Assembly (NCBI RefSeq): GCF_002204795.1
Contig: NZ_NIXO01000015.1
Location: 1-64,000 of the forward strand
DNA: 64,000 nt
Origin: Pseudomonas sp. K2I15
GTDB lineage: Bacteria; Pseudomonadota; Gammaproteobacteria; Pseudomonadales; Pseudomonadaceae
Direction of reading: 5' to 3'
The position numbers and the translations under genes are program-made. Below, piece after piece: positions 10,906 through 52,132 of the stretch. Each line of letters opens with the position of its first letter. Position 1 is the first letter of the stretch. The notes below the pieces were generated by a model. It worked only from the letters and a program-made list of their open reading frames with translations. It was not told the origin of the DNA and made no database searches.

Positions 10906-10960
10906 TTTATAGGGACGACGTGCCTTTGTGCTTCCTGCCTATTGCCCCGGATCCCAAGAA

Positions 10961-23329
<12,369 letters not shown>

Positions 23330-23331
23330 AA

Positions 23332-34392: not shown

Positions 34393-37300
34393 TGGACACC
34401 GCTGTCGCACAACGTATTGCCAGGCGCTTCATAACGCTGCCGCTGGAAAAACGCCGTCTTTACCTGCAGAAAATGCTTGAAGAGGACGTTTCCCCGGCGA
34501 ACCTGCCGATTCCGCCTGTCAGTGCCGAGTTCGACACGTTGTCATTGTCTTTTGCCCAGGAACGCCAATGGTTCCTGTGGCAGTTGGACCCGCAGAGTGC
34601 GGCTTATCACATGCCCACGGCCCTGCGCTTGCGCGGGCCATTGGACATCGCTGCGCTGCAACAGAGTTTCAGTGCGCTGGTCGCGCGCCACGAGAGCCTG
34701 CGTACCACCTTCGTGACGCACGGCGAGCAAGTGGTGCAGCACGTGCAGGAGGCAGCACCGGTACATCTGCACGTGCAGCCTCTGGCCCAGGTGCCGGACG
34801 AGGCGCAACTGCGGCACTTGATCGAAGACGAGACCCGCCGGTTGTTCGACTTGCAGCAGGGGCCGTTGTTGCGCACGTGCCTGTTGCAACTGGCAGCGGA
34901 TGACCATGTGCTGATTGTGACCTTGCACCACATCGTCTCCGATGGCTGGTCGATGCAGGTAATGGTTGAGGAGTTGGTCAAGGGCTACGCCGCGTTCAGT
35001 CGGGGGCTCAGCCTGGAACTGCCGGCTTTGCCGATTCAATACAGCGACTATGCCATCTGGCAGCGGCACTGGATGGAGGCCGGCGAACGAGAGCGTCAGT
35101 TGCAGTACTGGACCGCGCAACTGGGTGGCGAGCAGCCGGTGCTTGAACTGCCGACTGACGTTGCCCGGCCGGCTGTGATGAGCTATCGCGGTGCCCGGCT
35201 GGAGTTGAATATCGACGCCGCGCTGGTTGCAGGCCTCAAGCAGATGGCCCAGCGCGAAGGGGTCAGCCTGTTCATGATTCTGCTGGCCTCCTACCAGGCC
35301 TTGCTGCATCGCTACAGCGGGCAGAACGACATTCGGGTCGGTGTGCCGACTGCGAACCGCAACCGGGTGGAGACCGAGGGGTTGATCGGGTTTTTCGTCA
35401 ACACCCAAGTGCTCAAGAGCGAGGTCGACAGCCAGGGCTCATTCAGTGCGTTGCTGCAACAGGTCAAGCAGGCCGCGCTGGATGCACAGGCGCATCAGGA
35501 TCTACCGTTCGAGCAACTGGTGGAAGCCTTGCAGCCGCAACGCAACCTGAGCCACAGCCCGCTGTTTCAAGTGATGTTCAACCACCAGACCCAAGGCCCG
35601 ACGGGCGAGGGGCCGGTGGGCGAATTGAAGGTCGAGGGGCTGCGCTGGGATACCCATAGTGCGCAATTCGACCTGACCCTGGAAACCATGGAACGTCCCG
35701 AGGGCCTGTCTGCGGCGCTGATCTATGCCACGGACCTGTTCGGCGTGGACACGGTTGCGCGCATGGCCGGGCACTGGCAAAACCTGCTGCAGGCAATTGT
35801 CGCGAACCCGGCACACAGCATTGGTGAGCTACCGTTGCTTGACGCTGTACAGCGTCAAGTACAGCTCCAAGATTGCGCCCCCCCTCCGGTCGCCATGCCG
35901 CAGGCGGGTTATGTTCATCGACTGTTCGAGGCGCAGGTGGCCCGTTCACCGGACGCCCCGGCGCTGGTCGTCGATGGCCTGCGCTTGAGCTACGGGCAAC
36001 TCAACAGCCGGGCCAATCAGTTGGCGGTGGAGTTGCAGCGTCACGGCGTGAGCGCCGGTGTGCTGGTGGGCATTGCCGTCGAGCGCAGCCCGCACATGCT
36101 GATCGGGTTGTTGGCGATCCTCAAGGCCGCAGGCGCCTATTTGCCCCTCGATCCCGCGTTCCCGCAGGATCGCCTCGCCTACATGATTGAAGACAGTGGT
36201 ATTGACCTGTTGCTGACCCAGCATTCGCTGCTTAGCCAGATACCGGTGCCCGACACGGTCAAGACGTTGGTGCTGGATCAACCGGGCGACTGGCTTGACG
36301 GCCATCCCGGTGACGATCTGCCGACCCGGCTGGACCCGGAGCACCTGGCTTATGCAATCTACACCTCCGGCTCCACCGGCCAGCCCAAAGGGGTGATGGT
36401 GCGGCATGCTGCACTGACCAACTTTGTCGCAAGCATGGCCCGGGTGCCGGGAATGACCGCCCAGGATCGGGCGTTGTCACTGACCACGTTCTCGTTCGAT
36501 ATTTTTGGCCTGGAAATCTACGTACCCCTGATGGTCGGTGCGTGCATCGTACTGACCGGCCAGGAGGTGGCGCAGGACCCGTACGCGGTGCTGGCCCTGA
36601 TCGAAGCCGAACAGGTCAACGTGGTGCAAGCGACCCCCTCGACCTGGCGCATGTTGCTCGACAACGAACAGGCCCAGGTGCTCCAGGGTTGCAAGTGCCT
36701 GTGCGGTGGCGAGGCGTTGCCCCAGGAGCTGGCGGTACGCATGCTTGGCCTTGGCGGTGAGGTCTGGAACCTCTATGGCCCTACGGAAACCACCGTCTGG
36801 TCGGCGTTGCACCGGCTGGGTCCGCAGGCTGCGCAACCATGGCTGGGCGGGCCAATCGACAACACATCGCTGTACATCGTCGGTGCAGACCTGATGCCGG
36901 TACCCTATGGTGTTGCCGGCGAGTTGCTGATCGGCGGGGACGGCCTGGCGCGGGGTTACTTCCAGCGCCCGGCATTGACCGCCGAACGCTTTGTTCCCCA
37001 TCCGTTTTCCAGTGCCGGCGAGCGGCTTTACCGTACCGGCGACCTTGCACGTCAGCGCCCGGACGGCATCCTCGAATACCTGGGGCGGATCGACCATCAG
37101 GTGAAAATTCGCGGTTTCCGCATCGAGCTCGGGGAAATCGAAGCACGCCTGCTCGAACAGGACGCCGTGCGCGAAGCCGCAGTACTGGCCCAGGATGCCC
37201 CGGGCGGCCAGGCGTTGGTGGCGTATGTGGTCCCCAGCGCCGAATGGCAGAACCTGGATGCTGACGGGCAGTGTCGCCTGCGTGACAGCTTGAACGCGCG

Positions 37301-40300
37301 GCTCAACGTCAACCTGCCCGATTACATGGTGCCGGCGCACATGGTGCTGCTGCCAAGGTTCCCGCTGACCCCCAACGGCAAGCTGGACCGCAAGCAACTG
37401 CCCAAGCCGGATGCCAGCCAATGGCAGAAAACCTATGTGGCTGCGCAGACGCCCGTGCAGCAAGCGGTAGCGGCGATCTGGGCCGAGGTGCTCAACGTGC
37501 CGCGGGTTGGCCTGAGTGACAACTTCTTCGAGCTGGGCGGCCATTCGCTGCTGGCGACCCAAGTGGTTTCGCGGATTCGCCAGCAACTGTACGTCCAGGT
37601 GCCTTTGCGCCTGCTGTTCGCCCATAACAGCCTGCAAGCGTTTGTCGAGGCGATGGCCCCGGCATCGTCGACCCCTGAGCTGGCTATCCCGCGTCTCGCG
37701 CGGGACCAATCGCTTGCGTTGTCGTACGCCCAGCAACGGCAATGGTTTTTGTGGCAACTGGAGCCTGCCAGCAGCGCCTACCATATTCCCGCCGCCCTGC
37801 GTTTGCGCGGCCACCTTGACCAGGCGGCGTTGCAACAGTGTTTTGACGCCCTGGTGGCGCGTCATGAGAGCTTGCGTACCCGGTTTGTGCTGGAGAACGA
37901 ACGTCCCGTACAACGGATTGACGCGCCGGTGCCGGTGGCCATTGCAGTGGAGTCGGCGGCTGCCGAGCTGGATGCCAATAGCCTGCGCGGCTTGATTGAA
38001 GCTGAAACCCGCCAGCTCTTTGATCTGCAGCGTGGGCCGTTGCTGCGGGTCAAACTGTTGCAACTGGGCGCTGAAGATCATGTGCTGATCCTGACTCAGC
38101 ACCACATCGTGTCGGACGCCTGGTCGATGCGGGTCATGATCGACGAACTGATGCAGTTGTATCGCGGCTTCAGTCAAGGCCAGCCGGCTGAGCTGGCGGC
38201 ACTGCCGATCCAGTACGCCGATTACGCGCACTGGCAGCGTCAGTGGCTGGCGGCGGGTGAGCAGCAACGTCAGCTCGGCTACTGGACAGAACAGTTGGGA
38301 GGCGAGCAACCCGTTCTTGAGCTGCCAACTGACCATCCACGTCCGGCTCAACAAAGCTATCGCGGTGCCAGGCTGCCGATCACCCTCGAACCGTCCCTGG
38401 CCGAGAGCCTCAAGCGCCTGGCGCAACAGCAAAACACCACACTGTTCATGCTGCTGTTGGCCGGTTTCCAGACCTTGTTGCATCGCTACAGCGGGCAGCA
38501 GGATATTCGTGTCGGGGTACCGATTGCCAACCGCAATCGCCTTGAAACCGAGGGGATGCTGGGTTTCTTCGTCAACACCCAGGTGCTCAGGGCCGACATT
38601 GAGGGGCACTTGCGCTTTGACCAGTTGCTCCATCAGGTTAAGCAGCGGGTACTGGGGGCGCAGGCTCATCAGGACCTGCCCTTCGAGCAACTGGTGGAAC
38701 TGCTTGCTCCCGCACGCAACCTGAGCCACACGCCATTGTTCCAGGCGATGTTCAACCATGCCAGCGATGCCCGTCGTGAGGTTATTGACCTGCCGGGGTT
38801 GAGCCTGGAGCAATTGACCTGGGATTCGGGCAGCGCGCAGTTCGACCTCTCCCTGGATACGTTCGAGTACAGCGAAGGCATCAGTGCCGCACTGTCCTAC
38901 GCCTCTGACTTGTTTGAGCCGGCTACTGTCGTGCGCCTGGGCGAGCATTGGCTGAACCTGCTGCGCGCGATTGTGGCCAACCCCACCCAACGCATCGCCG
39001 AGTTGCCGATGCTCGATGCGGTGCAGCGCCGGATGATGGTTCAGGACTGGAACCGCACGTTCGCCCACTTCCCGAATCACCAGCCGGTGCAGCACTTGAT
39101 CGAAGCCCAGGTGGAGCGGGCCCCGCATGCGGTAGCGTTGGTGTTCGAGGGCCAGTCGCTGACCTATGCCCAGCTCAACGCGCGGGCCAACCAGTTGGCC
39201 CATGCCCTGATCGCGCGTGGCGTCGGGCCGGACGTGCTGGTGGGCATTGCACTGCACCGTAGCGTGGAAATGGTGGTGGGGCTGCTGGCGATCCTGAAGG
39301 CCGGCGGTGCCTATGTACCCCTGGACCCGGAGTACCCGCCGGAGCGCCTGGCCTACATGATCGACGACAGCGGCATCGAGTGGCTGCTGACCCAGCAAGC
39401 GCTGGTCGCAACCTTGCCGCTGCCGGAGCGGGTGCGCACACTGATACTCGATGGTGGCGACGATTGGCTGGCCGGTGAGGCGCAAAGCAACCCCGAGTCG
39501 CGCGCCGTCGCGCACAACCTCGCTTATGTGATTTACACCTCCGGTTCTACCGGCAAACCCAAAGGGGCTGGCAACAGCCACGGAGCCCTGACCAACCGGT
39601 TGTGCTGGATGCAGCAGGCCTACGCGCTGCACGCCGACGACCGCGTGCTGCAAAAAACGCCGTTCAGCTTCGATGTGTCGGTCTGGGAGTTTTTCTGGCC
39701 GTTGATGACTGGCGTCCGGCTGGTCGTGGCGTCGCCAGGGGATCACCGTGATCCACAGAAGCTGGTGCGGCTGATCGAACGCGAAGGCATTACTACCCTG
39801 CATTTCGTCCCGTCGATGCTGCAAGCATTTGTGCTGGACGCCAACGTCAGCCGCTGCACCAGCCTCACCCGTATCGTCTGCAGTGGCGAAGCCTTGCCGG
39901 TCGATGCCCAGCAGCAGGTATTCGCCAAGCTGCCGGGCGCGGGGTTGTTCAATCTCTACGGCCCTACCGAAGCGGCGATTGATGTCACCCACTGGACCTG
40001 TCGCGACGAAGGTCGTGATGCAGTGCCCATCGGTGAGCCGATAGCGAACTTGATGACCTACATCCTCGACGCTGAACTGAACCCGGTGCCTATCGGCGTC
40101 AACGGCGAACTGTACCTCAGCGGCCAGGGGCTGGCGCGCGGGTACCACCGTCGTCCGGAACTGACGGCCGAACGTTTCGTTGCCAGTCCGTTTGTCGCCG
40201 GCGAACGGCTGTACCGCACGGGTGACCTGGCACGCTACCGCGCCGACGGCGTGATTGATTACATCGGCCGTATCGACCATCAGGTGAAGATCCGCGGTTT

Positions 40301-43300
40301 TCGTATCGAGTTGGGAGAAATCGAAGCGCGCCTGCTGGAGCACGAGGCCGTGCGTGAAGCCGTGGTGGTGGCGCAGGACAGCCGCAACGGCAAAGCCCTG
40401 AGTGGCTACGTCGTGACCCAGCCTGACGCCGCCACCGACTGGCCGGCACTGCGCGAGGCGCTGGCGGCGCATCTGCGCCAGGCCCTGCCGGAACACATGG
40501 TGCCGACGCACCTGACGCCGCTTAAAAAAATGCCCCTGAGCCCCAACGGCAAACTCGACCGCAAGGCACTCCCGGTGCCAGACCTGGTTGAGGTGCAGCA
40601 GGACTTCGTGGCTCCCGCCAATGCGGTCGAAAGTGCCCTGGTCGAGATCTGGCAAGCCGTGCTCGGCGTGGCCCGGGTGGGTACCACCGATAACTTCTTC
40701 GCCTTGGGTGGCGACTCGATCAATTCGATTCAAGTGGTCAGCCGCGCACGTCAGCAGGGAATCGGCTTGACCCCCAAGGACCTGTTCCTGCACCAGAACA
40801 TCCAGGCGCTGGCCCGGGCTGCGACCGCTGATCAAGCCGGTACGATCGATCAGGGGCCGGTCAGCGGTGACAGCCACCTGGTACCGATGCAGCACTGGTT
40901 CTTCGCCAGTGACATGGCGCACCGTGACCACTGGAACCAGTCGCTGATGCTGACCCCGCGCGAGCCATTGGACGTCGCGTGTTTGCAACAGGCACTCGAG
41001 CACGTGGTGGCCCATCATGACGCCTTGCGCTTGCGCTTCCTGCAATCGGGCGAGGGTACCTGGCAGGCCGGCCATGAGGCCGTCGGTGCACAACCGGTGG
41101 ACCTCTGGCAGCGCCAGGCAGAGAACGCCGATGAGATCATCGCCATTGCCAACCAGGCGCAACGCAGCCTTGACCTGCAACACGGCCCGTTGCTGCGCTG
41201 CAGCCTGATCGCGGTGCAGGACGGCAGTTCGCGCTTGCACCTGGCGATTCACCACTTGGTAATGGACGGAGTTTCGTGGCGCGTGCTGCTGGAAGACTTG
41301 CAAACGGCCTACCGGCAACTGACGGCGAACCAGCCGGTGGTGTTGCCGGCCAAGTCCACGGCGTTCAAGGCATGGGCCGATCAGTTGCAGGGCTACGCCC
41401 ACAGTGAAGGGCTGGCTCGGGAATTGAGTTACTGGACCAGACAACTGGCCCATACGTTGCCGGAGCTGCCACGGGCGCGGCCTGAGGGCAGCCAGGCTTC
41501 GGTGCATGGCCATTCGGTCAATACCCGTCTGGATACAGAACAGACCCGGCGCCTGCTCAAACAGGCGCCGTCGGCCTATCGCACGCAAGTCAACGATCTC
41601 TTGCTCAGTGCCCTGGCGCAGGTGATTTGCCAGTGGACTGCGCAACCTGCGTGCCTGGTGCAACTGGAAGGTCATGGGCGTGAGGAGTTATTCGGGGGTG
41701 TCGACCTGAGCCGCACGCTGGGCTGGTTCACCAGCCTGTTCCCGGTGGTATTGACACCATCGGCGCACGCGGCAGACACGATCAAGGGCATCAAGGAACA
41801 ACTGCGCGCGGTGCCGAACAAGGGCCTGGGTTATGGCGTGCTGCGTTACCTCGGTGCCGAGGACGTCCGGTCGCATTTGGCGAAACTCGCGCAGGCGCGG
41901 ATTACCTTCAACTATCTCGGCCAGTTCGACCAAAGCTTCGATGAGCAGGCGTTGTTCACGCCGAGCGAGGAGGGCAGCGGGGCAGGGCACGCTGATGACG
42001 TGGCGCTGGGCAACTGGCTGACCATCGATGGCCGGGTGTTCAACGGCCAGTTGTCCCTGGACTGGACCTTCAGTCGCGACGTTTTTGATGAGGCCACTGT
42101 CCAGCAATTGGCCGATGCCTACGGCGTAGCGTTGCGGGCATTGATCGAGCATTGCTGCGGCGAAGAGCATCAGGGCCTGACGCCGTCTGACTTCCCGTTG
42201 GCCCGTTTGACCCAGGCGCATCTGGACGGCTTGCCGGTACCCGTGGCGCAGGTGCAAGACGTCTATCCGTTGTCACCGATGCAAGAAGGCATGCTGTTCC
42301 ACACCCTGGCCGACGACAGCAGCGGCCTGTACATCAACCAGATCAGCCTGCCGGTACGCGGGCTGGATACCGAACGTTTCACCGCAGCCTGGCAATCGGT
42401 GGTTGAGCGTGAGGACATTCTGCGGACCAGTTTTCATTGGCAGGATGGCTTGAGCGCCCCGGTGCAAATTGTCCACCGCCAGGCCGAACTGCCGCTGCTG
42501 ATCGAAGACTGGCGCGGCCAGGACATCAGCGAACAGGCGATCGGCGAGCGCGCAACGGCCGATTACCTGCAAGGTTTCGATTTGGCCCGTGCGCCGTTGC
42601 AGCGTGTGCTGTTGTTGCGTCTTGAGGACGACCGCTACCAGATGATCTGGACCTGCCATCACATCCTGATGGACGGCTGGAGCAGCTCGCGACTGTTCGG
42701 CGAGGTTTTACAGTTTTATGCCCACGGCCACGTGCCGGGGCGCAACGGTCGTTACCGCGAGTTCATCGAATGGCTGCAACGCCAGGATCAAGGGGCACTG
42801 GAGGGCTTCTGGAGAAGCCGTCTCGCAACACTGGAGCAGGCAACCTCGCTGAACCAGGCGATGTTCCCGCGCCATGTCGAGGATTTGCCGGGGCACCAGG
42901 CGCTTTATTCGCGCTGGGATGCGGCGCAAACCGCACGCCTGCAACAGGCTTGCCGCGCCTTGCAAATCACACCCAACACGCTGATCCAGGGGGCGTGGCT
43001 GTTGTTGCTGCAACGCTTTACCGGGCAGAACACCGTGGTGTTCGGTGCCACCGTCGCCGGCCGTCCTGCGGGGCTGGTCAACGCCGACAACATCCTGGGG
43101 CTGTTCATCAATACGCTACCGGTGATCCAGACCCTGGAGCCGGCGCAGCCTCTGGATCAGTGGTTGCAACAGTTGCAGGCCTGCAACATGGATATCCGTG
43201 AGCACGCACACGCGCCGCTGGCAGACATTCAGCGCTGGTCGGGCCTGGGGGGGCAGGGGCTGTTCGACAGCATCATCGTGTTTGAGAACTACCCGATCGA

Positions 43301-46300
43301 TGAGCGCCTGGGTGAACAACAAGACACTGGCCTGAGCTTCGGCGAGTCGCGCAACCATGACGTCACCAACTTTGCGATGGACCTGGCGGTAAACCTCGGC
43401 GAACAGTTGTCGATCGAGTATCTGTTCCTGCGCAATGCCTTCAGTGTCGAGGCGGTGGAGCAGATTCGCCGCTGCATGGAAGACACCCTTGAGGCCATGA
43501 TCGTTGCGCCGACAGCGCGACTGGGTAACCTTCAGCGCCTTGGCGCCGATCAGTGGCAGGCCTTTGAGCAGTGGAGTGCGGCGCCGAATGCCAGCTACCA
43601 GGCGCAGCTCTTGCCGGAACTGATCGCGCGCCATGCCCATTCGCGTGGAGAGGCGACGGCACTGGTGTGTGGGGGCGACTCGCTGAGCTACGGTGAGCTG
43701 GAACGTCGAGCCAATTGCCTGGCCCATCGTTTGATCGAATTGGGGGCCGGGCCGGAAGTGGTGGTCGGGGTGGCCCTGGAACGTTCCGTAGAAATGGTCG
43801 TGGCGTTGTTGGCGGTGATGAAAAGCGGCTCGGCTTATGTGCCGTTGGACATCGACTATCCGCCCGAGCGCCTGGCGTTCATGATGCAAGACTCGGCGAT
43901 GGCGCTGCTGCTGACTCATAGCCAGGTGCAGGCGCGCCTGCCAGCGGTGGAAGGCCTGGCCCAACTGGCCATCGATACGTTTGACCGCGCGGGCTACAGC
44001 GACACGCCGCCAGCCAGCGGTTTGCTGGGCGCCAATCTGGCCTACTTGATTTATACCTCGGGCTCCACAGGCCGGCCGAAAGGTGTGGCAGTGGCGCATG
44101 GGCCGATGAGCATGCATTGCCAGGCCATTGCCGGGCTGTATGACATGGATGAGCGCACCCGCGAGCTGCATTTCATGTCGTTTGCCTTCGACGGCGCTCA
44201 CGAGCGCTGGCTCAGTACGCTATTGAGCGGGGGCACGCTGGTGATCCGCGATGCCAGCCTGTGGACGCCGGAGCAGACCTTCGACGCCTTGCATCAACAC
44301 AGCATCACGATTGCCTGTTTCCCGCCGGCCTACCTCAAGCAGTTGGCCGAATACGCGGCCCATAGCCAACAGGTACCGCCACCGGTACGGGTGTATTGCT
44401 TCGGTGGCGATGCGGTGCCGGACCAGACCTTCGAACAAGTGAAAGCGGCACTGCGCCCACAGTTCTTTACCAACGGCTATGGCCCGACCGAAACCGTGGT
44501 CACGCCGATGCTCTGGAAGGTCCCGGTCGGCACCCGTTGCGAGGCCGCTTATGCGCCGATCGGGCGTGCTGTCGGCGAGCGAGCGTTGTACGTGCTGGAC
44601 GAAGACCTCAACCCGCTGCCGCCGGGGATTGCCGGTGAACTGTACATCGGGGGCCAGGGCATTGCCCGCGGCTATTACCGTCGTCCGGACCTGAGTGCCG
44701 AGCGCTTTGTGCCGGACCCTTTCGGGCCGCCGGGCGATCGTCTCTACCGCAGTGGCGACCTGGTGCGTCAGCGCGTTGATGGTGTGCTTGATTACGTCGG
44801 GCGAATTGATCACCAGATCAAGGTCCGGGGCTTTCGCATTGAACTGGGGGAAATCGAGGCGAGCCTGCGGCAACTGGACGACGTCAGCGATGCGTTGGTG
44901 ATCGCCCGTGACAGTGCATCGGGCAAGCAACTGATCGGTTATGTGGTGACGCCCGATGGCATGGCCATCGGTGATCGCCTCAAGGCGCACGTGCGCGCGC
45001 AATTGCCGGATTACATGGTGCCCACCCAGATCATCTGCATGGTGGCGCTGCCTGTGACGCCCAACGGCAAGCTGGATCGCCAGGCCTTGCCGGAACCTGA
45101 ATTCAAGGGCAGCGAGTATGTCCCCGGCCGTACTCGTGACGAGCAACTACTGGCGCAGGTCTGGGCTGATGTGTTGCAAGTGGAGCGCGTGGGTATCACC
45201 GACAACTTCTTCGAGCTGGGCGGTGACTCGATCCTCAGCCTGCAGGTCGTGTCGCGGGTACGCAACCACCCTGAACTGAAGATGGACCTCAAGCTGCGGG
45301 ACCTGATGCGCGGGCAGACCATCGAGGCGATTTTCGAGCAGCGCTCCAGCAGCGGCGCCACGGTGATCGATGACGTGTCGCAGGTGGCCGCCGAGGGCCA
45401 GTTCAACCTGATTCCGATCCAGCAGTGGCTGTTCGACCAGCGTATGAGCGAGCCGCATCATTACAACCAGGCATTGATGCTGCGTGCACGCCAGGCGCTG
45501 AATCTGCCGGCGCTGGAGCTGGCATTGCGCTGCATGTTGAAGCAGCACGACGCCCTGCGCTTGCGCTTTCGTGAGGTGGGCGCACGCCATTACCAGCATT
45601 ACCAGCCACTTGAGGAAATGCAGGCGCAATGGGCCACTGAGCCCTTGTTATGGCAACACACCGTGGCCGATGAGGCTGAGCTTGAACTGTATGCCGAACA
45701 GGTACAGCGCAGCCTGGACTTGCAAGACGGGCCGGTGTGGCGTACCGCTCATGTGACGTTGGGCGATGGCCAGGTCCGGGTATTGATGGTGATCCATCAT
45801 TTGGTGATCGACACTGTTTCCTGGCGTTTGCTGCTGCAGGATTTGCAGGTCGCTTATGAGGCTTACAGCAATGGCCAGGCGCCGGCCCTGCCGATTCGCA
45901 CCAGCAGCTACCGGGCCTGGGCCGAGGGTTTGCAAGCGTACGCGGCGAATTATCCGGCGCAGGAGCAAGCCTGGTGGCTTGAGCAGATCGACCAGCCGGG
46001 CAGTGAGCTGCCGTGCGACAACCCGCGTGGCAAGAACCAGGTGCAGTACCAATCGGTCGCGCTGATGGGCCTGTCGCAGGAGCACACCCAGCAGTTACTC
46101 AAACAGGTGCCTGCGGTCTACCAGACGCAGATCAATGATGTGTTGCTCGCGGCGTTGAGCCGGGTGTTGTGCCGCTGGAGCGGGCAGCCTTCGGTACTGA
46201 TCCAGCTCGAAGGCCATGGCCGCGAAGACCTGGTCAAGGACATCGACCTGAGCCGCAGCCTGGGATGGTTTACCAGTATGTTCCCGGTGCGCCTGGCACC

Positions 46301-46721
46301 CGGTGCCGGGGCTGATATCGGGGCCTCGGTGCGTGCAGTGCAGCGGCAATTGGCGGGCGTACCGAACAAAGGCCTGGGCTATGGAATACTGCGTCACATG
46401 AGCGGTGGGCAAATGGCCGATACCTTGCGCCTTGCACCGCAGGCGCGTGTCACCTTCAACTACCTGGGGCAGTTCGACCAGAGCTTCGATGACAAGGCGA
46501 TGTTGGTGCCGGCTCAGGAGAGCTATGGCAGTTGCTACAGCCCGCAGGCGGCGCTGGGCAATTGGCTGGAAGTGGTGGGGCAGGTGTATGACGGACGCCT
46601 GGCGATGCGCTGTATCTTCAGCACGCGCCGCTACCGTGCCGAAACCGTTGAACAGTTGATGCGTGAGTACCAGGCCGAACTGGAGGCGCTGATCGAGCAT
46701 TGCGTGGCACAAGCGGCTTAA
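34392..46721 (+). CDS. pvdD: Terminal pyoverdine NRPS, modules 7-9 (Gly, D-Ser, D-OHOrn), no thioesterase
   Basis: Encodes 4109 residues; its ATG shares the last base of the pvdJ stop (TGATG), with GAGGAGG at 34381-34387 as a strong ribosome site. Domain order is C-A-T-C-A-T-E-C-A-T-E. Condensation motifs are at 179 (HHIVSDG), 1237 (HHIVSDA, Ala replacing Gly) and 2756; E motifs are at 2287 (HHLVMDG) and 3802 (HHLVIDT, Thr replacing Gly). Carrier serines are Ser1052, Ser2109 and Ser3613. Pocket codes are DILQLGLVWK (glycine), DVWHVSLIDK (serine) and DGECCGGVTK (hydroxyornithine-type). The protein stops right after the last E domain; no thioesterase or reductase follows. By position it corresponds to PvdD of PAO1, which I recall as ending in a thioesterase. 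Release may be by lactamisation of the terminal hydroxyornithine or by a separate enzyme. Confidence 0.9.
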   Translation: MDTAVAQRIARRFITLPLEKRRLYLQKMLEEDVSPANLPIPPVSAEFDTLSLSFAQERQWFLWQLDPQSAAYHMPTALRLRGPLDIAALQQSFSALVARHESLRTTFVTHGEQVVQHVQEAAPVHLHVQPLAQVPDEAQLRHLIEDETRRLFDLQQGPLLRTCLLQLAADDHVLIVTLHHIVSDGWSMQVMVEELVKGYAAFSRGLSLELPALPIQYSDYAIWQRHWMEAGERERQLQYWTAQLGGEQPVLELPTDVARPAVMSYRGARLELNIDAALVAGLKQMAQREGVSLFMILLASYQALLHRYSGQNDIRVGVPTANRNRVETEGLIGFFVNTQVLKSEVDSQGSFSALLQQVKQAALDAQAHQDLPFEQLVEALQPQRNLSHSPLFQVMFNHQTQGPTGEGPVGELKVEGLRWDTHSAQFDLTLETMERPEGLSAALIYATDLFGVDTVARMAGHWQNLLQAIVANPAHSIGELPLLDAVQRQVQLQDCAPPPVAMPQAGYVHRLFEAQVARSPDAPALVVDGLRLSYGQLNSRANQLAVELQRHGVSAGVLVGIAVERSPHMLIGLLAILKAAGAYLPLDPAFPQDRLAYMIEDSGIDLLLTQHSLLSQIPVPDTVKTLVLDQPGDWLDGHPGDDLPTRLDPEHLAYAIYTSGSTGQPKGVMVRHAALTNFVASMARVPGMTAQDRALSLTTFSFDIFGLEIYVPLMVGACIVLTGQEVAQDPYAVLALIEAEQVNVVQATPSTWRMLLDNEQAQVLQGCKCLCGGEALPQELAVRMLGLGGEVWNLYGPTETTVWSALHRLGPQAAQPWLGGPIDNTSLYIVGADLMPVPYGVAGELLIGGDGLARGYFQRPALTAERFVPHPFSSAGERLYRTGDLARQRPDGILEYLGRIDHQVKIRGFRIELGEIEARLLEQDAVREAAVLAQDAPGGQALVAYVVPSAEWQNLDADGQCRLRDSLNARLNVNLPDYMVPAHMVLLPRFPLTPNGKLDRKQLPKPDASQWQKTYVAAQTPVQQAVAAIWAEVLNVPRVGLSDNFFELGGHSLLATQVVSRIRQQLYVQVPLRLLFAHNSLQAFVEAMAPASSTPELAIPRLARDQSLALSYAQQRQWFLWQLEPASSAYHIPAALRLRGHLDQAALQQCFDALVARHESLRTRFVLENERPVQRIDAPVPVAIAVESAAAELDANSLRGLIEAETRQLFDLQRGPLLRVKLLQLGAEDHVLILTQHHIVSDAWSMRVMIDELMQLYRGFSQGQPAELAALPIQYADYAHWQRQWLAAGEQQRQLGYWTEQLGGEQPVLELPTDHPRPAQQSYRGARLPITLEPSLAESLKRLAQQQNTTLFMLLLAGFQTLLHRYSGQQDIRVGVPIANRNRLETEGMLGFFVNTQVLRADIEGHLRFDQLLHQVKQRVLGAQAHQDLPFEQLVELLAPARNLSHTPLFQAMFNHASDARREVIDLPGLSLEQLTWDSGSAQFDLSLDTFEYSEGISAALSYASDLFEPATVVRLGEHWLNLLRAIVANPTQRIAELPMLDAVQRRMMVQDWNRTFAHFPNHQPVQHLIEAQVERAPHAVALVFEGQSLTYAQLNARANQLAHALIARGVGPDVLVGIALHRSVEMVVGLLAILKAGGAYVPLDPEYPPERLAYMIDDSGIEWLLTQQALVATLPLPERVRTLILDGGDDWLAGEAQSNPESRAVAHNLAYVIYTSGSTGKPKGAGNSHGALTNRLCWMQQAYALHADDRVLQKTPFSFDVSVWEFFWPLMTGVRLVVASPGDHRDPQKLVRLIEREGITTLHFVPSMLQAFVLDANVSRCTSLTRIVCSGEALPVDAQQQVFAKLPGAGLFNLYGPTEAAIDVTHWTCRDEGRDAVPIGEPIANLMTYILDAELNPVPIGVNGELYLSGQGLARGYHRRPELTAERFVASPFVAGERLYRTGDLARYRADGVIDYIGRIDHQVKIRGFRIELGEIEARLLEHEAVREAVVVAQDSRNGKALSGYVVTQPDAATDWPALREALAAHLRQALPEHMVPTHLTPLKKMPLSPNGKLDRKALPVPDLVEVQQDFVAPANAVESALVEIWQAVLGVARVGTTDNFFALGGDSINSIQVVSRARQQGIGLTPKDLFLHQNIQALARAATADQAGTIDQGPVSGDSHLVPMQHWFFASDMAHRDHWNQSLMLTPREPLDVACLQQALEHVVAHHDALRLRFLQSGEGTWQAGHEAVGAQPVDLWQRQAENADEIIAIANQAQRSLDLQHGPLLRCSLIAVQDGSSRLHLAIHHLVMDGVSWRVLLEDLQTAYRQLTANQPVVLPAKSTAFKAWADQLQGYAHSEGLARELSYWTRQLAHTLPELPRARPEGSQASVHGHSVNTRLDTEQTRRLLKQAPSAYRTQVNDLLLSALAQVICQWTAQPACLVQLEGHGREELFGGVDLSRTLGWFTSLFPVVLTPSAHAADTIKGIKEQLRAVPNKGLGYGVLRYLGAEDVRSHLAKLAQARITFNYLGQFDQSFDEQALFTPSEEGSGAGHADDVALGNWLTIDGRVFNGQLSLDWTFSRDVFDEATVQQLADAYGVALRALIEHCCGEEHQGLTPSDFPLARLTQAHLDGLPVPVAQVQDVYPLSPMQEGMLFHTLADDSSGLYINQISLPVRGLDTERFTAAWQSVVEREDILRTSFHWQDGLSAPVQIVHRQAELPLLIEDWRGQDISEQAIGERATADYLQGFDLARAPLQRVLLLRLEDDRYQMIWTCHHILMDGWSSSRLFGEVLQFYAHGHVPGRNGRYREFIEWLQRQDQGALEGFWRSRLATLEQATSLNQAMFPRHVEDLPGHQALYSRWDAAQTARLQQACRALQITPNTLIQGAWLLLLQRFTGQNTVVFGATVAGRPAGLVNADNILGLFINTLPVIQTLEPAQPLDQWLQQLQACNMDIREHAHAPLADIQRWSGLGGQGLFDSIIVFENYPIDERLGEQQDTGLSFGESRNHDVTNFAMDLAVNLGEQLSIEYLFLRNAFSVEAVEQIRRCMEDTLEAMIVAPTARLGNLQRLGADQWQAFEQWSAAPNASYQAQLLPELIARHAHSRGEATALVCGGDSLSYGELERRANCLAHRLIELGAGPEVVVGVALERSVEMVVALLAVMKSGSAYVPLDIDYPPERLAFMMQDSAMALLLTHSQVQARLPAVEGLAQLAIDTFDRAGYSDTPPASGLLGANLAYLIYTSGSTGRPKGVAVAHGPMSMHCQAIAGLYDMDERTRELHFMSFAFDGAHERWLSTLLSGGTLVIRDASLWTPEQTFDALHQHSITIACFPPAYLKQLAEYAAHSQQVPPPVRVYCFGGDAVPDQTFEQVKAALRPQFFTNGYGPTETVVTPMLWKVPVGTRCEAAYAPIGRAVGERALYVLDEDLNPLPPGIAGELYIGGQGIARGYYRRPDLSAERFVPDPFGPPGDRLYRSGDLVRQRVDGVLDYVGRIDHQIKVRGFRIELGEIEASLRQLDDVSDALVIARDSASGKQLIGYVVTPDGMAIGDRLKAHVRAQLPDYMVPTQIICMVALPVTPNGKLDRQALPEPEFKGSEYVPGRTRDEQLLAQVWADVLQVERVGITDNFFELGGDSILSLQVVSRVRNHPELKMDLKLRDLMRGQTIEAIFEQRSSSGATVIDDVSQVAAEGQFNLIPIQQWLFDQRMSEPHHYNQALMLRARQALNLPALELALRCMLKQHDALRLRFREVGARHYQHYQPLEEMQAQWATEPLLWQHTVADEAELELYAEQVQRSLDLQDGPVWRTAHVTLGDGQVRVLMVIHHLVIDTVSWRLLLQDLQVAYEAYSNGQAPALPIRTSSYRAWAEGLQAYAANYPAQEQAWWLEQIDQPGSELPCDNPRGKNQVQYQSVALMGLSQEHTQQLLKQVPAVYQTQINDVLLAALSRVLCRWSGQPSVLIQLEGHGREDLVKDIDLSRSLGWFTSMFPVRLAPGAGADIGASVRAVQRQLAGVPNKGLGYGILRHMSGGQMADTLRLAPQARVTFNYLGQFDQSFDDKAMLVPAQESYGSCYSPQAALGNWLEVVGQVYDGRLAMRCIFSTRRYRAETVEQLMREYQAELEALIEHCVAQAA

Positions 46722-46748
46722 GGATTGAGGCCGATCCAACGTTATACA

Positions 46749-46773
46749 AAGAGGGGCCCTTGCGGCTCCTCTT
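46749..46773 (+). terminator. Hairpin after the NRPS operon
   Basis: AAGAGGGGCC (46749-46758) pairs with GGCTCCTCTT (46764-46773) around a 5-nt loop, with one G-T type mismatch. It begins 27 bp after the pvdD stop. There is only a short T run afterwards, so it may attenuate rather than stop read-through into the hydrolase gene. Confidence 0.6.
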
Positions 46774-46805
46774 TCGTCTGTGGCTTTTTCATAAGGAAAC
46801 CTGCG

Positions 46806-47768
46806 ATGTCCTTGCATCCGGAACTCAATGCCTTCCTCGACCTGGCGCAAGAAAGCCAGGCGGACGGCCCTGGGCCGTTTCACCTGTCAACGCCTGCCCA
46901 GGCCCGTGAGGCGTTCGAGCGCACCACCGCGCAACTGCGCTGGGAGGCACCTGCGCAGGTGCGCTGTAGCGCCATCGAATTCACGGCACGCGATGGCTCG
47001 ACGCTGGCGTTGCGTGTGTACCGTCCTGCTGCCGTTTCGGCGCAGAGCCTGCCGGTACTCGTGTACTTTCATGGCGGTGGCTATGTGGTCGGCAGCCTGG
47101 AGTCTCATGACGGGGTGTGCCGCGAGTTCTGCGCCAGAACCCCGTGTGCGGTGGTTTCAGTGGGTTATCGACTGGCACCGGAGCACAGGTTCCCGACGCC
47201 GCTGAACGATGGCGCCGATGCCCTGGCCTGGCTGGCCGATAACGCCGCAGGCGAAGGCCTGGACATCACCCGCGTGGCTTTCGGTGGCGACAGTGTGGGG
47301 GCCACACTGGCGACGGTACTGGCGTTGCAGTCGGTGCTTGAGCCCGCGACACTGGCAATCAAACCCTGCTGGCAACTGCTGTGCTATCCGGTGACGGACG
47401 CTTCCACCAATAGCCCGTCGACCGAGTTGTTCGGCGAGGGGTATCTGCTGGAGAGCGAGACACTTGAATGGTTCTACCGGCATTACGCCCGGGAGGCGGC
47501 GGATCGTCTTGACTGGCGCTTCTCGCCATTGCTGGCGCCGGGTTACCAGGGAATGCCACCGGCGTTGATTGCGTTGGCCGGTCATGACCCGCTGCTGGAT
47601 GAAGGCCGTGCCTACGCCCGACGTTTGCAGGATCAGGGGGTGGCGGTGGAGGTGATCGAGTACGCCGGGTTGATTCACGACTTCCTGCGCTTGCAGAGCG
47701 TGGTGCCGGATATCGACGGGGTGTACGGTCAATTGACCCAGGCATTGCGAACCGCGCTGACAGCTTGA
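46806..47768 (+). CDS. HSL-family alpha/beta hydrolase in the pyoverdine locus
   Basis: Encodes 320 residues. The catalytic set of the hormone-sensitive-lipase family is complete: oxyanion motif HGGG at 89-92, nucleophile Ser163 in GDSVG, acid Asp261 in HDPLLDE, and His291 in LIHDF. There is no signal peptide, so it is cytoplasmic. AAGGAA at 46793-46798 precedes the ATG by 7 nt; upstream in-frame codons would run through the terminator hairpin and are rejected. It lies 84 bp after the last synthetase, in the same direction, and converges on fpvA. I recall a lipase/esterase gene in the same place in P. putida KT2440. A role as separate thioesterase or editing enzyme for the synthetase is attractive because the synthetase lacks one, but this is inference. 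Confidence 0.85.
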   Translation: MSLHPELNAFLDLAQESQADGPGPFHLSTPAQAREAFERTTAQLRWEAPAQVRCSAIEFTARDGSTLALRVYRPAAVSAQSLPVLVYFHGGGYVVGSLESHDGVCREFCARTPCAVVSVGYRLAPEHRFPTPLNDGADALAWLADNAAGEGLDITRVAFGGDSVGATLATVLALQSVLEPATLAIKPCWQLLCYPVTDASTNSPSTELFGEGYLLESETLEWFYRHYAREAADRLDWRFSPLLAPGYQGMPPALIALAGHDPLLDEGRAYARRLQDQGVAVEVIEYAGLIHDFLRLQSVVPDIDGVYGQLTQALRTALTA

Positions 47769-47818: not shown

Positions 47819-50284
47819 TTAGAAGTTGTACGTCACGTCAACCGAGGCGACACGCTCCTGGCCGTAGTAGCAGCCGAACGAATAGTTGCAGTGGGACACG
47901 TACTCGCGGTTAAACACGTTTTGCACGTTCAGGCTGGTCTCCACGCCGCGCAGGCTTGGCGATACTTTGCTCAGGTCGTAGCTGACGGTGGTGTCATAGA
48001 CCACGAAGCCCGGGATCTCGAACGAGTTGGCTGCGTCACCCGGCTTGGGGCCGGTGTAGCGGGCGCCGGCACCGAAGGTCAGGCCATTGAGCACGGCTTG
48101 GGTGAAGTGGTAGTCAACCCACAGCGAGGCTGAAACCGGCGCTTGTTGCTCGGTGCGGTTGCCGGTGTTGCCGTAGTTGTTCTTGATGTAGAACGCATCC
48201 AAGTAGGAAGCGGCGGCCAGTACGTCGACGTTGGCAATCGACGATTTGACTTCCAGTTCAACACCACGGGAGCGCACCTGGCCCTGCTGGACCGAGTACT
48301 GTGTGTATTCGTTATCCTGGCTCAGCACGTTTTTCTGTTTGATCTGGTACACGGAAGCGGTGATCAGGGTCTTCTCGAACGGCTGGTATTTCACACCCAC
48401 TTCGTACTGTTCGCCTTCGGTCGGCGCGAAGGCCTTGCCACCACGCTCGGGCGCGGTGGTGCCGACGGTCGGCAGGAAGGATTCGGAGTAGCTGACGTAT
48501 GGCGCCAGTCCGAAGTCGGTGACATAGGTCAGGCCGACACGGCCAGTGAACTTGTTGTCACGCTGTTCGGTGATGGAGTTTGCAATCAGGTCCTTGTTTT
48601 CCACTTCGGCCCAGTCCTGGCGGCCACCAACGGTCAGGATCCACTTGTCCAGTTTGATCTGGTCCTGCAGGTAGACGCCGGTCTGGCGCACGGTGTTGTC
48701 CCACTTGGTGGTTTTCTCTGGGGTCACGCTGCTGGTGTCGTAGTTGTTGTTTTCGCCGTAGAGGTTGATCGGCAGCACGTTGTAGGAGTTGTAGCCGGTG
48801 TATTTGCGGTTGAAGTTGCGATAGTCCAGGCCGACCAGAGTGGTGTGCTCAAGCGCGCCGGTGTTGAATTTGTATTCCAGGTTGTTATCGATGGTGTAAG
48901 CGGTGTTGTGCTGGCGCCAGTCGAGTTTGACGCGATTGGCCTGGGTCTGGTCGACCGCGCCGGTGACTGCGTCGGTGACGAAGCTGCGCAGGTAGAAGCC
49001 TTTGTAGTCGTCGCGCACGTCGGTGTAGCGGGCGGTGGAGCGACCTTTCAGGTTGTCGCTGAAGCTGTGGGTCAAATCGTAGCCCAGGATGAACTGGTCA
49101 CGTTTGTAGTCGTTGTATTTCGAGTCGCCGGAGAAGAAATTGCGGTCGATGCGCTTGCCGTTGGGGCCACGCTCCAGAGAGCCGATCATCGGCAGCGCCT
49201 GATAGTCTTCCAGCCCCCGGTCCCGCTGGATTTGCGCCAGTACGGTCAGGGAGGTGTCGTCGTTCGGGGCCCAGGTCAGGCTTGGCGCCAGCAGCATGCG
49301 TTCACTGTGGGTGTGATCGACCTGCTGGTTGCCTTTCTTCGCGACGCCGACGATGCGATAGCTGAACTCTTTCTGCTCGTCGAGCGGGCCGCTGGTGTCG
49401 AATGCGCCGTTGACCCGGTTGTAGCTGCCGGCACCGATCTTGACTTCAGTGCGTTGTTCCGTGGTCGGTCGCTTGGAGACCATGTTGATCAGGCCACCTG
49501 GCTGGTTCTGGCCAAAGAGCACCGACGACGGGCCTTTGAGCACTTCGATGCGCTCCAGGGTGTACGGGTCTATCTGCGGAGCGCCGCCCAGGCTGCCGGC
49601 ATAGGGCAGGTAAGCGCCGTCCAGGTACAACTGGGTAGGGGCGAAGCCACGGCTGGTGATTTCGTCAGCGATCGCGTTGCGGTCGGTGAAGCCGCCAGTG
49701 TTCAGGCCGGGCGTGTAGCGCAAGGCTTGGGTCAAGTTCAGTGCGCCCTGGGTCTCGATCTGTTTGGCGGTGACCACGTTGATGGTTTGCGGGATTTCCA
49801 GGATGGGCGTATCAGTCTTGGTGCCGGTGGCGCTGCGGGTGGCGACGTAACCGTCCACGGGGCCGTAGGCCGATTCAACAGCCCGGCCGCTGATAGTAGT
49901 GGCACCCAGTTCCAGCGAGTCGCCCGTTGCCCTGGCACGTACGGTGACGGTGTTGTCTTGAACAGTGAACACTGCGCCGGTCCCCACCAGCATCAGCGAT
50001 AACGCCTGTTCAGACGAAAACCGGCCGCTCACCGGTTGGCTGCGCTGGCCCTTTACATCATCGGCGCTGTACAGCACTTGCATGTTCGACTGGGTGCCCA
50101 GTGCCTGCAGTGCGCTTGCCAGCGATTGTGCCGGGATATTGAAGCTGATCTCCTGGGCCTGAACCTGCGCACTGAACGGCAACGCCAGCGCCATGCTGAA
50201 CGCGGTGGCGCTGAAGCCCGGCTGCAGCATACGACGCATGAACAAGGCCTTGGTAAAACGTGGAATCCCCGCAATTGCTGACAT
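47819..50284 (-). CDS. fpvA: Ferripyoverdine TonB-dependent receptor with signalling domain
   Basis: Encodes ~821 residues. After a long signal peptide (cleavage near QVQAQE) come the N-terminal STN signalling domain (SFNIPAQSLASALQALG, about residues 45-115), the plug domain (IPQTINVVTAKQIETQG; LKGPSSVLFGQNQPGGLINMVSKRP) and a 22-strand beta-barrel ending in aromatic Phe. It imports the iron-pyoverdine complex using TonB energy and signals through an anti-sigma factor to FpvI and PvdS. A GTG at 50293 is in frame, but ATG 50284 has AAGAG 8 nt upstream. A Fur-like site lies about 80 bp upstream. The gene is adjacent to pvdE and 51 bp from the hydrolase stop. The barrel should be specific for this strain's own pyoverdine. 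Confidence 0.95.
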   Translation of the reverse strand: MSAIAGIPRFTKALFMRRMLQPGFSATAFSMALALPFSAQVQAQEISFNIPAQSLASALQALGTQSNMQVLYSADDVKGQRSQPVSGRFSSEQALSLMLVGTGAVFTVQDNTVTVRARATGDSLELGATTISGRAVESAYGPVDGYVATRSATGTKTDTPILEIPQTINVVTAKQIETQGALNLTQALRYTPGLNTGGFTDRNAIADEITSRGFAPTQLYLDGAYLPYAGSLGGAPQIDPYTLERIEVLKGPSSVLFGQNQPGGLINMVSKRPTTEQRTEVKIGAGSYNRVNGAFDTSGPLDEQKEFSYRIVGVAKKGNQQVDHTHSERMLLAPSLTWAPNDDTSLTVLAQIQRDRGLEDYQALPMIGSLERGPNGKRIDRNFFSGDSKYNDYKRDQFILGYDLTHSFSDNLKGRSTARYTDVRDDYKGFYLRSFVTDAVTGAVDQTQANRVKLDWRQHNTAYTIDNNLEYKFNTGALEHTTLVGLDYRNFNRKYTGYNSYNVLPINLYGENNNYDTSSVTPEKTTKWDNTVRQTGVYLQDQIKLDKWILTVGGRQDWAEVENKDLIANSITEQRDNKFTGRVGLTYVTDFGLAPYVSYSESFLPTVGTTAPERGGKAFAPTEGEQYEVGVKYQPFEKTLITASVYQIKQKNVLSQDNEYTQYSVQQGQVRSRGVELEVKSSIANVDVLAAASYLDAFYIKNNYGNTGNRTEQQAPVSASLWVDYHFTQAVLNGLTFGAGARYTGPKPGDAANSFEIPGFVVYDTTVSYDLSKVSPSLRGVETSLNVQNVFNREYVSHCNYSFGCYYGQERVASVDVTYNF

Positions 50285-50363
50285 TGTGCTCACTCTTACT
50301 GGTTTTAATGGTTGCGTAGTTGTTATCGATTCTTAGTTAGACGCACGAGGCTGCAAAAACCAG

Positions 50364-50382
50364 AATGAGAATCGAACTTATT
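50364..50382 (-). promoter_or_regulatory. Fur-box-like site upstream of fpvA
   Basis: The plus strand begins AATGAGAATCG and ends TTATT; I count about 13-14 of 19 positions matching a typical Pseudomonas Fur box (AATGAGAATCATTATCATT). It lies in the 97-bp pvdE-fpvA gap and fits direct iron control of fpvA. A position-weight scan would settle it. Confidence 0.55.
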
Positions 50383-52031
50383 CATGCCGGTTGAAGTTCG
50401 GTGACCACTTTTCCGGCTTCCATGCGAACCAGTTGATCGGCGATGTCGAAGTAACGATCGTCGTGGGAAATCACGATGATGGTTTTGCCCAGGCGCTTCA
50501 GATCCGGCAGCAACTCTGTGTAGAAAATTCGCCGGAACGTCGGGTCCTGGTCTGCGGCCCATTCGTCAAACACCAGCACCGGGCGCTCCTCCAGCCATGC
50601 ATTGACCAGCGCCAGGCGCTTGCGCTGGCCGGTGGACAGGTCGGTTGTGGTGAACGAACCGTCACGCACGCTGACCTTGTGGCCGATCTCCAGGCGTTGC
50701 AGGTACTGGTTGGCATCTTCGGGAATATGCGTGTCGCCTTGCACCACATCGTCGAACAGGTAGTAGTCAGCGAAGATCGTGGTGAACAACTGGCGATAGT
50801 CGTCACGGGTCACTGCGGTCACGGCCTGGCCGTTGAGGCGGATCTCCCCCTGCTGCGGCGCGTACAGGCCAAGCAGCAGCTTGATCAGGGTGGTTTTGCC
50901 GCAACCGTTTTCGCCGACAATGAAGATGATGTCGCCTTGCTCGATCTTCAGGTTTACCGGCCCCAGGCGAAACGGTGCGCTGCCTTCGGTGGGGGGGAAG
51001 CTGTAGGCGACGTCAGTCAGTTCCAAGCTGTGCACCGGCGTGCTTTTGTTGCCTTGGTCGCTGAGCAGCAGGTGGGGCTCGGGCGAGGAAAACTGTTCCG
51101 ACAAGGCTGCAATGCGGCGCAAGGCTATCTGCGCGCGGCTGACGATTGGCAGAGTGCCGATCAGGTGCTCCAGCGGACCTTTCATGTACAACAGCACCAG
51201 CACAAAGCCGCTCATCACTGATTTGTCTGCACTCGGCCACAATGATTGCAGCGCGAGCGCCAGGCCGATCACCACGAAAAACAACATGGAGCCGAGGGTC
51301 TTGGCGACGACGAAAATATTCACCGAACGGATCTGCGTGTCGCAGATTTTGTCGGCAGTGTTTTCTATGCCTGAGACAAACATGCGGTGCCGGCGTGGAC
51401 GATGGATACGCAACTCCTTGGCGCCCTCGGCGATGGAGTTGTAGTGTTTTTGCAGTTCGTCTTCGGCGTCGCGGGCCTCCATGAATCCTTTGATTCCGCG
51501 GCCCCGGGCAATGTACTGGACGACTGTACCGATGATGATCGCGACCACCATGATCAGGAACATCGGCCATGACAGCATCGCCAGGTAACCCATGCAGCCA
51601 AGGGTGACGGTCAGGGAAATGGCCAGCGGCGCGAAGGCGAATGCGAAATCGCTGATGGTGTCGACGTCGTGGGTGAGTACCGGGATCAGGCGGTGGCTGC
51701 GGTAGCGCTCGATCTGTTCGATCGGCGCCGACAGGACTTTTTCCCCAAGCTCCTTGCGCAGCCGGGCGATGATCTTTTGCCCCACATAATTGGTGCCGAT
51801 ATCGGAAAAGATCGAACTGACCAGTGCCAGCAGGCAGAGGCCGGCGAAGGCGCCGACCACAGTGTTGGTCAGGCCGCTGTCGGCGTGCAGCACAGTATTG
51901 ATGGTCGCCAGCAATACCGTGACGCTGAGGCCACCGACCATGCCAAGCAGGATGGAGCCGACGACAATCAGCCGAAAGGGTTTGAGCAGGGTGAACAATT
52001 CATTGATCACCCCACGTGTTGGTTTGCTCAT
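50382..52031 (-). CDS. pvdE: Pyoverdine precursor ABC exporter
   Basis: Encodes 549 residues, the same length I recall for PAO1 PvdE. An N-terminal six-helix membrane domain (about 15-300) is fused to an ATPase domain with Walker A GENGCGKT (Lys379), signature LSTGQRKRL and Walker B VLVFDEWAAD. It moves the acylated ferribactin precursor across the inner membrane for periplasmic maturation. An upstream in-frame start at 52121 would lie at or before the expected transcription start, 8-10 bp beyond the CGT of the PvdS box at 52133-52135, so ATG 52031 is preferred. In PAO1 pvdF sits between pvdE and pvdO; here only 139 bp separates the genes and pvdF is absent. Confidence 0.95.
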   Translation of the reverse strand: MSKPTRGVINELFTLLKPFRLIVVGSILLGMVGGLSVTVLLATINTVLHADSGLTNTVVGAFAGLCLLALVSSIFSDIGTNYVGQKIIARLRKELGEKVLSAPIEQIERYRSHRLIPVLTHDVDTISDFAFAFAPLAISLTVTLGCMGYLAMLSWPMFLIMVVAIIIGTVVQYIARGRGIKGFMEARDAEDELQKHYNSIAEGAKELRIHRPRRHRMFVSGIENTADKICDTQIRSVNIFVVAKTLGSMLFFVVIGLALALQSLWPSADKSVMSGFVLVLLYMKGPLEHLIGTLPIVSRAQIALRRIAALSEQFSSPEPHLLLSDQGNKSTPVHSLELTDVAYSFPPTEGSAPFRLGPVNLKIEQGDIIFIVGENGCGKTTLIKLLLGLYAPQQGEIRLNGQAVTAVTRDDYRQLFTTIFADYYLFDDVVQGDTHIPEDANQYLQRLEIGHKVSVRDGSFTTTDLSTGQRKRLALVNAWLEERPVLVFDEWAADQDPTFRRIFYTELLPDLKRLGKTIIVISHDDRYFDIADQLVRMEAGKVVTELQPA

Positions 52032-52132
52032 GGAGGTTCCCTGCTTGAAGAGCGGCCGGGCGCGGCCTGGGTGGCATAGAGGGCGGTGGTGCGCCGCAGT
52101 GCATTGCACGGCGGGTCGCACACACCTGTAAA

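Follow-up and report, generated by a model that had tools for sequence, protein, structure and literature searches.

The gene at 46806..47768 on the + strand of the window (the whole stretch of Pseudomonas sp. K2I15 DNA that was analysed, 64,000 nucleotides) encodes an HSL-type α/β hydrolase whose true correlate in Pseudomonas genomes is a terminal hydroxyornithine module in the nonribosomal peptide synthetase (NRPS), with or without a thioesterase (TE) domain. Because the hydrolase follows the chemical nature of the final residue and not the absence of a release domain, it is a good candidate for a ring-preparing or ring-closing enzyme, and we regard it as very probable that it works on the terminal hydroxyornithine end.

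The gene starts with ATG and its product of 320 residues, a candidate terminal-hydroxyornithine deacylase or cyclase, matches PF07859 (Abhydrolase_3) in a Pfam profile search with an E-value of 1.8e-68 and 230.9 bits against a curated cut-off of 25. The catalytic triad is complete at Ser163, Asp261 and His291, as the first-pass annotation had placed it, with HGGG at residues 89–92 and a GDSxG motif around the serine. In an alignment of 110 sequences (the window protein and 109 survey homologues), the HGGG motif and the triad were both found, with Ser and Asp invariant in 110/110 and His in 109/110, the remaining sequence having a gap. Judged by eye, the N-terminus (MSLHPELNAFLDLAQ) is not a signal peptide, in agreement with the earlier reading, and the protein is probably a cytoplasmic serine hydrolase. 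Its three best NCBIfam equivalogs all score below cut-off: LipP1 (286.1 bits, cut-off 350), chloramphenicol hydrolase (218.9, cut-off 500) and acetyl esterase (143.3, cut-off 389). PF00975, the type II thioesterase family, is absent from its three Pfam matches, and the same genome encodes five weaker relatives at ≤38% identity. An AlphaFold2 model (pLDDT 91.6) and a fold search gave a fold and no information on the substrate. The best fold matches, the HSL-type esterases LAE6, EH1AB1 and Est8, are alike in fold (TM-score 0.92–0.93 on the query), HGGG, GDSxG serine, Asp and His, but they are only 36–39% identical and are, by title, metagenome enzymes without a siderophore context.

The hydrolase gene lies 84 bp behind a synthetase that has no TE of its own, a spacing and architecture borne out by the coordinates and by Pfam. 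This terminal NRPS (34389..46721, +, 4110 aa) comprises three modules, Gly, Ser with an epimerization (E) domain and hydroxyornithine with an E domain; Pfam finds five condensation-family, three adenylation (A) and three carrier stretches in it and no thioesterase match. The terminal A domain (43569..45098, +) reads FDGAHE ... YCFGGDA ... NGYGPTETVVT and appears to be of hydroxyornithine type, and the last E domain (45369..46718, +; motif HHLVID) forms the final 450 residues. Two further synthetases precede it: NRPS 1 (10928..23329, +), with A-domain codes for Ser, hydroxyornithine and Gly, and NRPS 2 (23326..34392, +), with three modules of which the last, the only code parsed, is Gln-like. 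Downstream, convergent with the hydrolase gene, are a TonB-dependent receptor gene (47819..50293, −), FpvA-type by position, and an ABC transporter gene (50382..52121, −), PvdE-type by position. The A-domain codes of the window fit the P. aureofaciens pyoverdine, listed as Ser-AOHOrn-Gly-aThr-Thr-Gln-Gly-Ser-cOHOrn (PMC4219678), and the organism may well produce a pyoverdine of this type. Elsewhere in the genome, contig C32 carries a PvdY-type acetyltransferase gene near a sigma factor gene, a pvdL-like gene and, adjoining the latter, a gene for a PvdG-like type II thioesterase (252 aa, PF00975).

The first-pass annotation had tied the hydrolase to thioesterase-free architecture, an idea that would fall if genomes showed no correlation between the two. 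A search for relatives found 283, of which the best 79 loci were kept, 31 of them from Pseudomonas. In all 31 the next same-strand upstream ORF of at least 400 aa, a cut-off that leaves room for small ORFs in the longer gaps, is an NRPS ending −10 to 821 nt before the hydrolase; 19 of these NRPSs are E-terminal and 12 have a terminal TE by BLAST (3 of the 12 confirmed by Pfam). We then used the window hydrolase as query against 398 Pseudomonas genomes, of which 162 matched at 1e-60 and 236 did not. Reading ∼7 kb upstream and 3 kb downstream (less at contig ends) in 80 of the 162 positives gave 19 with an adjacent E-terminal NRPS without a TE, 55 with an adjacent TE-bearing NRPS and six with a TE-bearing NRPS elsewhere; in these six, the hydrolase gene stands, by eye, among genes resembling pvd genes. 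A terminal TE is therefore present in 61 of 80 hydrolase-positive genomes, no correlation with TE absence was found, and we reject both the proposed tie and the idea that the hydrolase stands in for a missing TE. A further 29 top-ranked positives all have an E domain upstream, within a view of 1.5 kb that leaves the last A domain outside. The counts cover these 80 and 29 genomes and the window, the other 52 of the 162 positives being left out, and place 49 of 110 classified hydrolases behind E-terminal lines and 61 with TE lines (55 adjacent, six elsewhere). In a quick, midpoint-rooted tree of the 110 hydrolases, the E-type genes fall into a single group (support only 53, one change needed) with TE-type genes on both sides of it, so that the association with TE lines looks older.

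What the adjoining synthetases have in common is their last A domain. The motifs FDGA[HQ]E, YC[FLC]GGDA and NGYGPTETV[VI]T were found by motif check in the last A domain of 105/105 NRPSs located just upstream of the hydrolase, E- and TE-terminal alike; the 105 combine the 31 named loci with 74 survey genomes, two sets that overlap in species and strains. The six TE-bearing NRPSs located elsewhere end in the same kind of module. By comparison with the P. aureofaciens product and with A-domain code tables, we predict this A domain to be of hydroxyornithine type. The earlier proposal of a release enzyme thus keeps its setting in a pyoverdine locus and, probably, its action at the end of the line, and loses its link to a missing TE.

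The same arrangement recurs outside the genus. Azospirillum sp. TSH64 (L031 10001-10960, 48% identity) and a record named Pantoea sp. Cy-639 (L035 10001-10879, 42%) both have, in order, a hydroxyornithine-type A domain, a TE, the hydrolase and a receptor. The full A-domain motif is present in L035, and L031 is readable only for the last part of the domain. No such NRPS stands beside the hydrolase relative in Paraburkholderia (L032), nor was a hydroxyornithine-ending NRPS seen beside the relatives in L033, L034 and L036-L058, some of which are short loci (L060-L079 lay outside this comparison).

To ask the converse question, we took a census of hydroxyornithine-type A cores in the 236 genomes unmatched at 1e-60, which found cores in 37/80 genomes at 1e-28 and in 27/78 and 37/78 at 1e-38. 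Of 158 core places, 100 were followed downstream: 93 are internal, a further condensation domain coming after them either within their own synthetase or in the one behind it; at two (L286, L370) the contig stops; and five end a synthetase (G180, G071, G247, G068 and G077). G180 (L272, G180:C32:59000-69000) is a clear pyoverdine-type case, with a hydroxyornithine-T-TE end, an acetyltransferase and, by eye, an adjoining receptor, ABC transporter and PvdA-like gene; a hydrolase of this clade is absent. G071 may be a second, its synthetase-ending core having a doubtful code (DGEGSGGVT) and a receptor next to it. G247 (L291, G247:C1:1977907-1984269) and G068 (L293, G068:C11:80933-87289), which also lack a hydrolase of the clade, have marinobactin-like hydroxyornithine-T-E-TE ends. 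Downstream of the G247 synthetase are, by eye, an aminotransferase and then a receptor, an order resembling the fmbE-fmbF-fmbG order reported for formomarinobactin, a product whose residues are described as staying acylated and whose C-terminal carboxyl is described as free (PMC13037486). Among the 58 unfollowed places, G302, G368 and G381 resemble G247 by NRPS size, and in G093 and G193 a core of 47% identity is followed after ∼2.2 kb by a TE; these five may be further terminal cases of the marinobactin-like kind without the hydrolase.

A TE query covered 230 of the 236 negatives. At 1e-25 it matched 22 of 74 genomes; the preceding A core was readable in eleven of these, with a hydroxyornithine code only in G180, and unreadable in the other eleven. 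At 1e-32 (78 + 78 genomes) it matched five, namely G076, G315, G107 (which has another last module), G045 and G307. G071 escaped the TE query at 1e-32, which makes the search by A core the more reliable census. G076 and G315, considered for a time as counterexamples, were withdrawn: blastx places the hydrolase right behind the terminal TE in both, missed at 1e-60 because it is split over two frames (the G076 contig holds only a fragment of the A domain). G077, G045 and G307, which have a different A-domain code, were excluded as NRPSs of another kind; G077 has, by eye, two-partner-secretion-like genes downstream. Sequencing error or decay may account for the hydrolases split over two frames in the fragmented assemblies L315 and L318 and for that at G285:C401:5644-6543, which has two internal stops.

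The second correlate is the acetyltransferase. For ACETYLTRANSFERASE, a strong PF13523 match (E ≤ 1e-40) was found in 42/42 hydrolase-positive genomes and 20/38 negatives, all chosen rather than random (Fisher p 9e-8, uncorrected for kinship). Of the 31 named Pseudomonas genomes 27 were tried, and all 27 have it, as do both L031 and L035, so that every hydrolase-bearing genome tried in the survey, in the named set and in these two other genera has the acyltransferase; PF13523 is absent from the Paraburkholderia genome. By core count, nine of the 42 positives have one core at 1e-28, eleven have a second at 45–47% identity and 22 have two clear cores. In the nine single-core genomes (G103 a single contig, the others drafts), the only core detected is by position the terminal module, and the acetyltransferase is retained. 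The acetyltransferase is not specific to hydrolase-positive genomes. Among the negatives, the strong match occurs in 15/15 with a single internal core, in 0/10 with two internal cores of 58–60% identity and in 1/8 without a core (G085), as well as in G244 (two internal cores, 55%), G077, G180 and G247, and not in G068; ten further negatives picked as special cases all have it. In three of 111 loci (G310, G296 and G270) the hydrolase and acetyltransferase genes converge, two of the pairs lying within 0.1 kb of each other and one 0.7 kb apart. P. putida KT2440 is reported to have PvdYII (PMC3596284), and hydroxyornithine occurs only as cOHOrn in the pyoverdine listed for it (PMC4219678). A review passage holds that acetylation is believed to be required for cyclization (PMC6206403).

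A single scheme could account for both correlates. PvdA supplies N5-hydroxyornithine, which a PvdY-type acetyltransferase then acetylates, and the terminal hydroxyornithine in known products of such lines is a cyclo-hydroxyornithine ring. The same two steps would operate here, as expected from these families and from the acetyltransferase gene found in this genome. The terminal A domain, with a code nearly that of the internal hydroxyornithine module, would load the masked residue, and on the carrier-bound peptide Ser163 of the hydrolase would strip the N5-acetyl group. The freed N-OH nitrogen would then attack its own thioester to give a six-membered hydroxamate lactam and release the peptide, unaided in E-terminal lines and with the assistance of the TE in TE lines. 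The acetyl group would serve to prevent premature cyclization on the carrier. We put the chances that the hydrolase is an N5-acetyl-hydroxyornithine deacetylase, judging from sequence, at about even. That the PvdY acetyl is a biosynthetic protecting group, the hydrolase a dedicated deprotecting enzyme that triggers lactam closure and release, and TE thereby made dispensable in one large Pseudomonas group is a tentative proposal, with somewhat less than an even chance of being right. If it is, the hydrolase gene would be a genomic marker for C-terminal cyclo-hydroxyornithine.

Several observations favor a deacylase. The usual targets of HSL-type esterases are small acyl groups, and G247 and G068, with their E-TE ends, have no hydrolase, in keeping with a formomarinobactin that keeps its acylated residues and free carboxyl. 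The formyl group of formyl-hydroxyornithine is described in a synthetic study as unusually easily lost (PMC13305306). Against it stand G180, and possibly G071, without the hydrolase, the limited specificity of the acetyltransferase, the sub-threshold scores of the three best curated family models and a paper that ascribes formation of the cyclic residue to PvdYII itself (PMC3596284). Loading of the acetylated residue is an assumption, because substrate tools are reported to be unable to separate hydroxyornithine and its formyl, acetyl and cyclic forms from one another (PMC11444679). The product that fits the window also has an internal acetyl-hydroxyornithine, so that the hydrolase would need selectivity for the terminal residue.

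A further point against the deacylase is that a cyclizing release enzyme would account just as well for the association with the NRPS. In this alternative, which acts in trans, the peptide would pass from the carrier to Ser163 and the acyl-enzyme would be attacked by the N-OH of the terminal residue, the original release idea being moved to terminal hydroxyornithine. We consider this less likely: it would draw on the same terminal-module association and would explain a possible loss of TE in the lines that precede 49 of the 110 hydrolases, yet the other 61 go with lines that retain a TE, the acetyltransferase is left unexplained where no hydroxyornithine module other than the terminal one was detected, and an HSL-type esterase would be expected to act on a smaller acyl group. 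PvdD-like C-terminal TE domains would share the hydrolase's step under this alternative, but they are integral to the NRPS, belong to PF00975 (three examples by Pfam) and coexist with the hydrolase in the 61 genomes. We consider it improbable that the hydrolase instead serves pyoverdine catabolism or repair, as an esterase that works on finished or mis-made molecules and might open the terminal lactam or take off a wrong acyl group; its nearest solved relatives are general esterases and a receptor matches in 69 of 111 fetched loci, but in 74 survey loci the gene is on the NRPS strand and close behind it (median gap 63 nt, 51/74 within 100 nt). Also improbable is the editing role first suggested, that of a type II thioesterase-like enzyme clearing blocked carriers, since, although a probably cytoplasmic serine hydrolase adjoining an NRPS would suit it, the genome already encodes the PvdG-like enzyme, likewise a small serine hydrolase of the pyoverdine pathway but of a different family (PF00975, not PF07859), and editing gives no reason for the strict tie to one type of terminal module.

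A comparable stand-alone hydrolase is CchJ, the esterase of the coelichelin cluster, which is encoded beside a hydroxamate-siderophore NRPS without a TE and resembles the present enzyme in that setting. With PP_4218, which we take to be the KT2440 locus tag for the hydrolase, a literature search returned no paper. Cyclo-hydroxyornithine is stated to terminate many pyoverdines (PMC4219678); the retrieved passages that credit PvdY(II) with a part in its formation name neither a hydrolase nor a cyclase, and the literature passages found contain no discussion of the hydrolase. For P. putida W15Oct28, a passage places 'one thioesterase gene' in the NRPS-fpvA cluster (PMC4219678), which could be this gene or another one. 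A large pyoverdine survey takes the thioesterase as the marker of the assembly-line end (PMC11444679), and pipelines built in that way could misplace the ends of clusters like that at 34389-46721 of the window. The hydrolase gene offers a candidate enzyme for the terminal residue and a handle on TE-free line ends, and it could serve as a marker when structures are predicted.

The hairpin noted earlier between the NRPS and hydrolase genes was recovered by RNA folding as a strong one at 46748-46774, within the intergenic region of 84 nt (46722..46805, +). The 88 nt folded give −30 kcal/mol (z −2.33), no T-run directly follows the hairpin and it is absent from the output of a terminator scan. When the gaps of ten relatives were folded, three close ones retained much of the window sequence and the rest gave hairpins of other sequence, so that the hairpin may have a part in RNA stability or attenuation. 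In L002 and L004 the gap before the hydrolase is 186 nt and consists mostly of a very long inverted repeat of the GAGGGAGCTTGCTCCC type, whereas the window has a short hairpin there.
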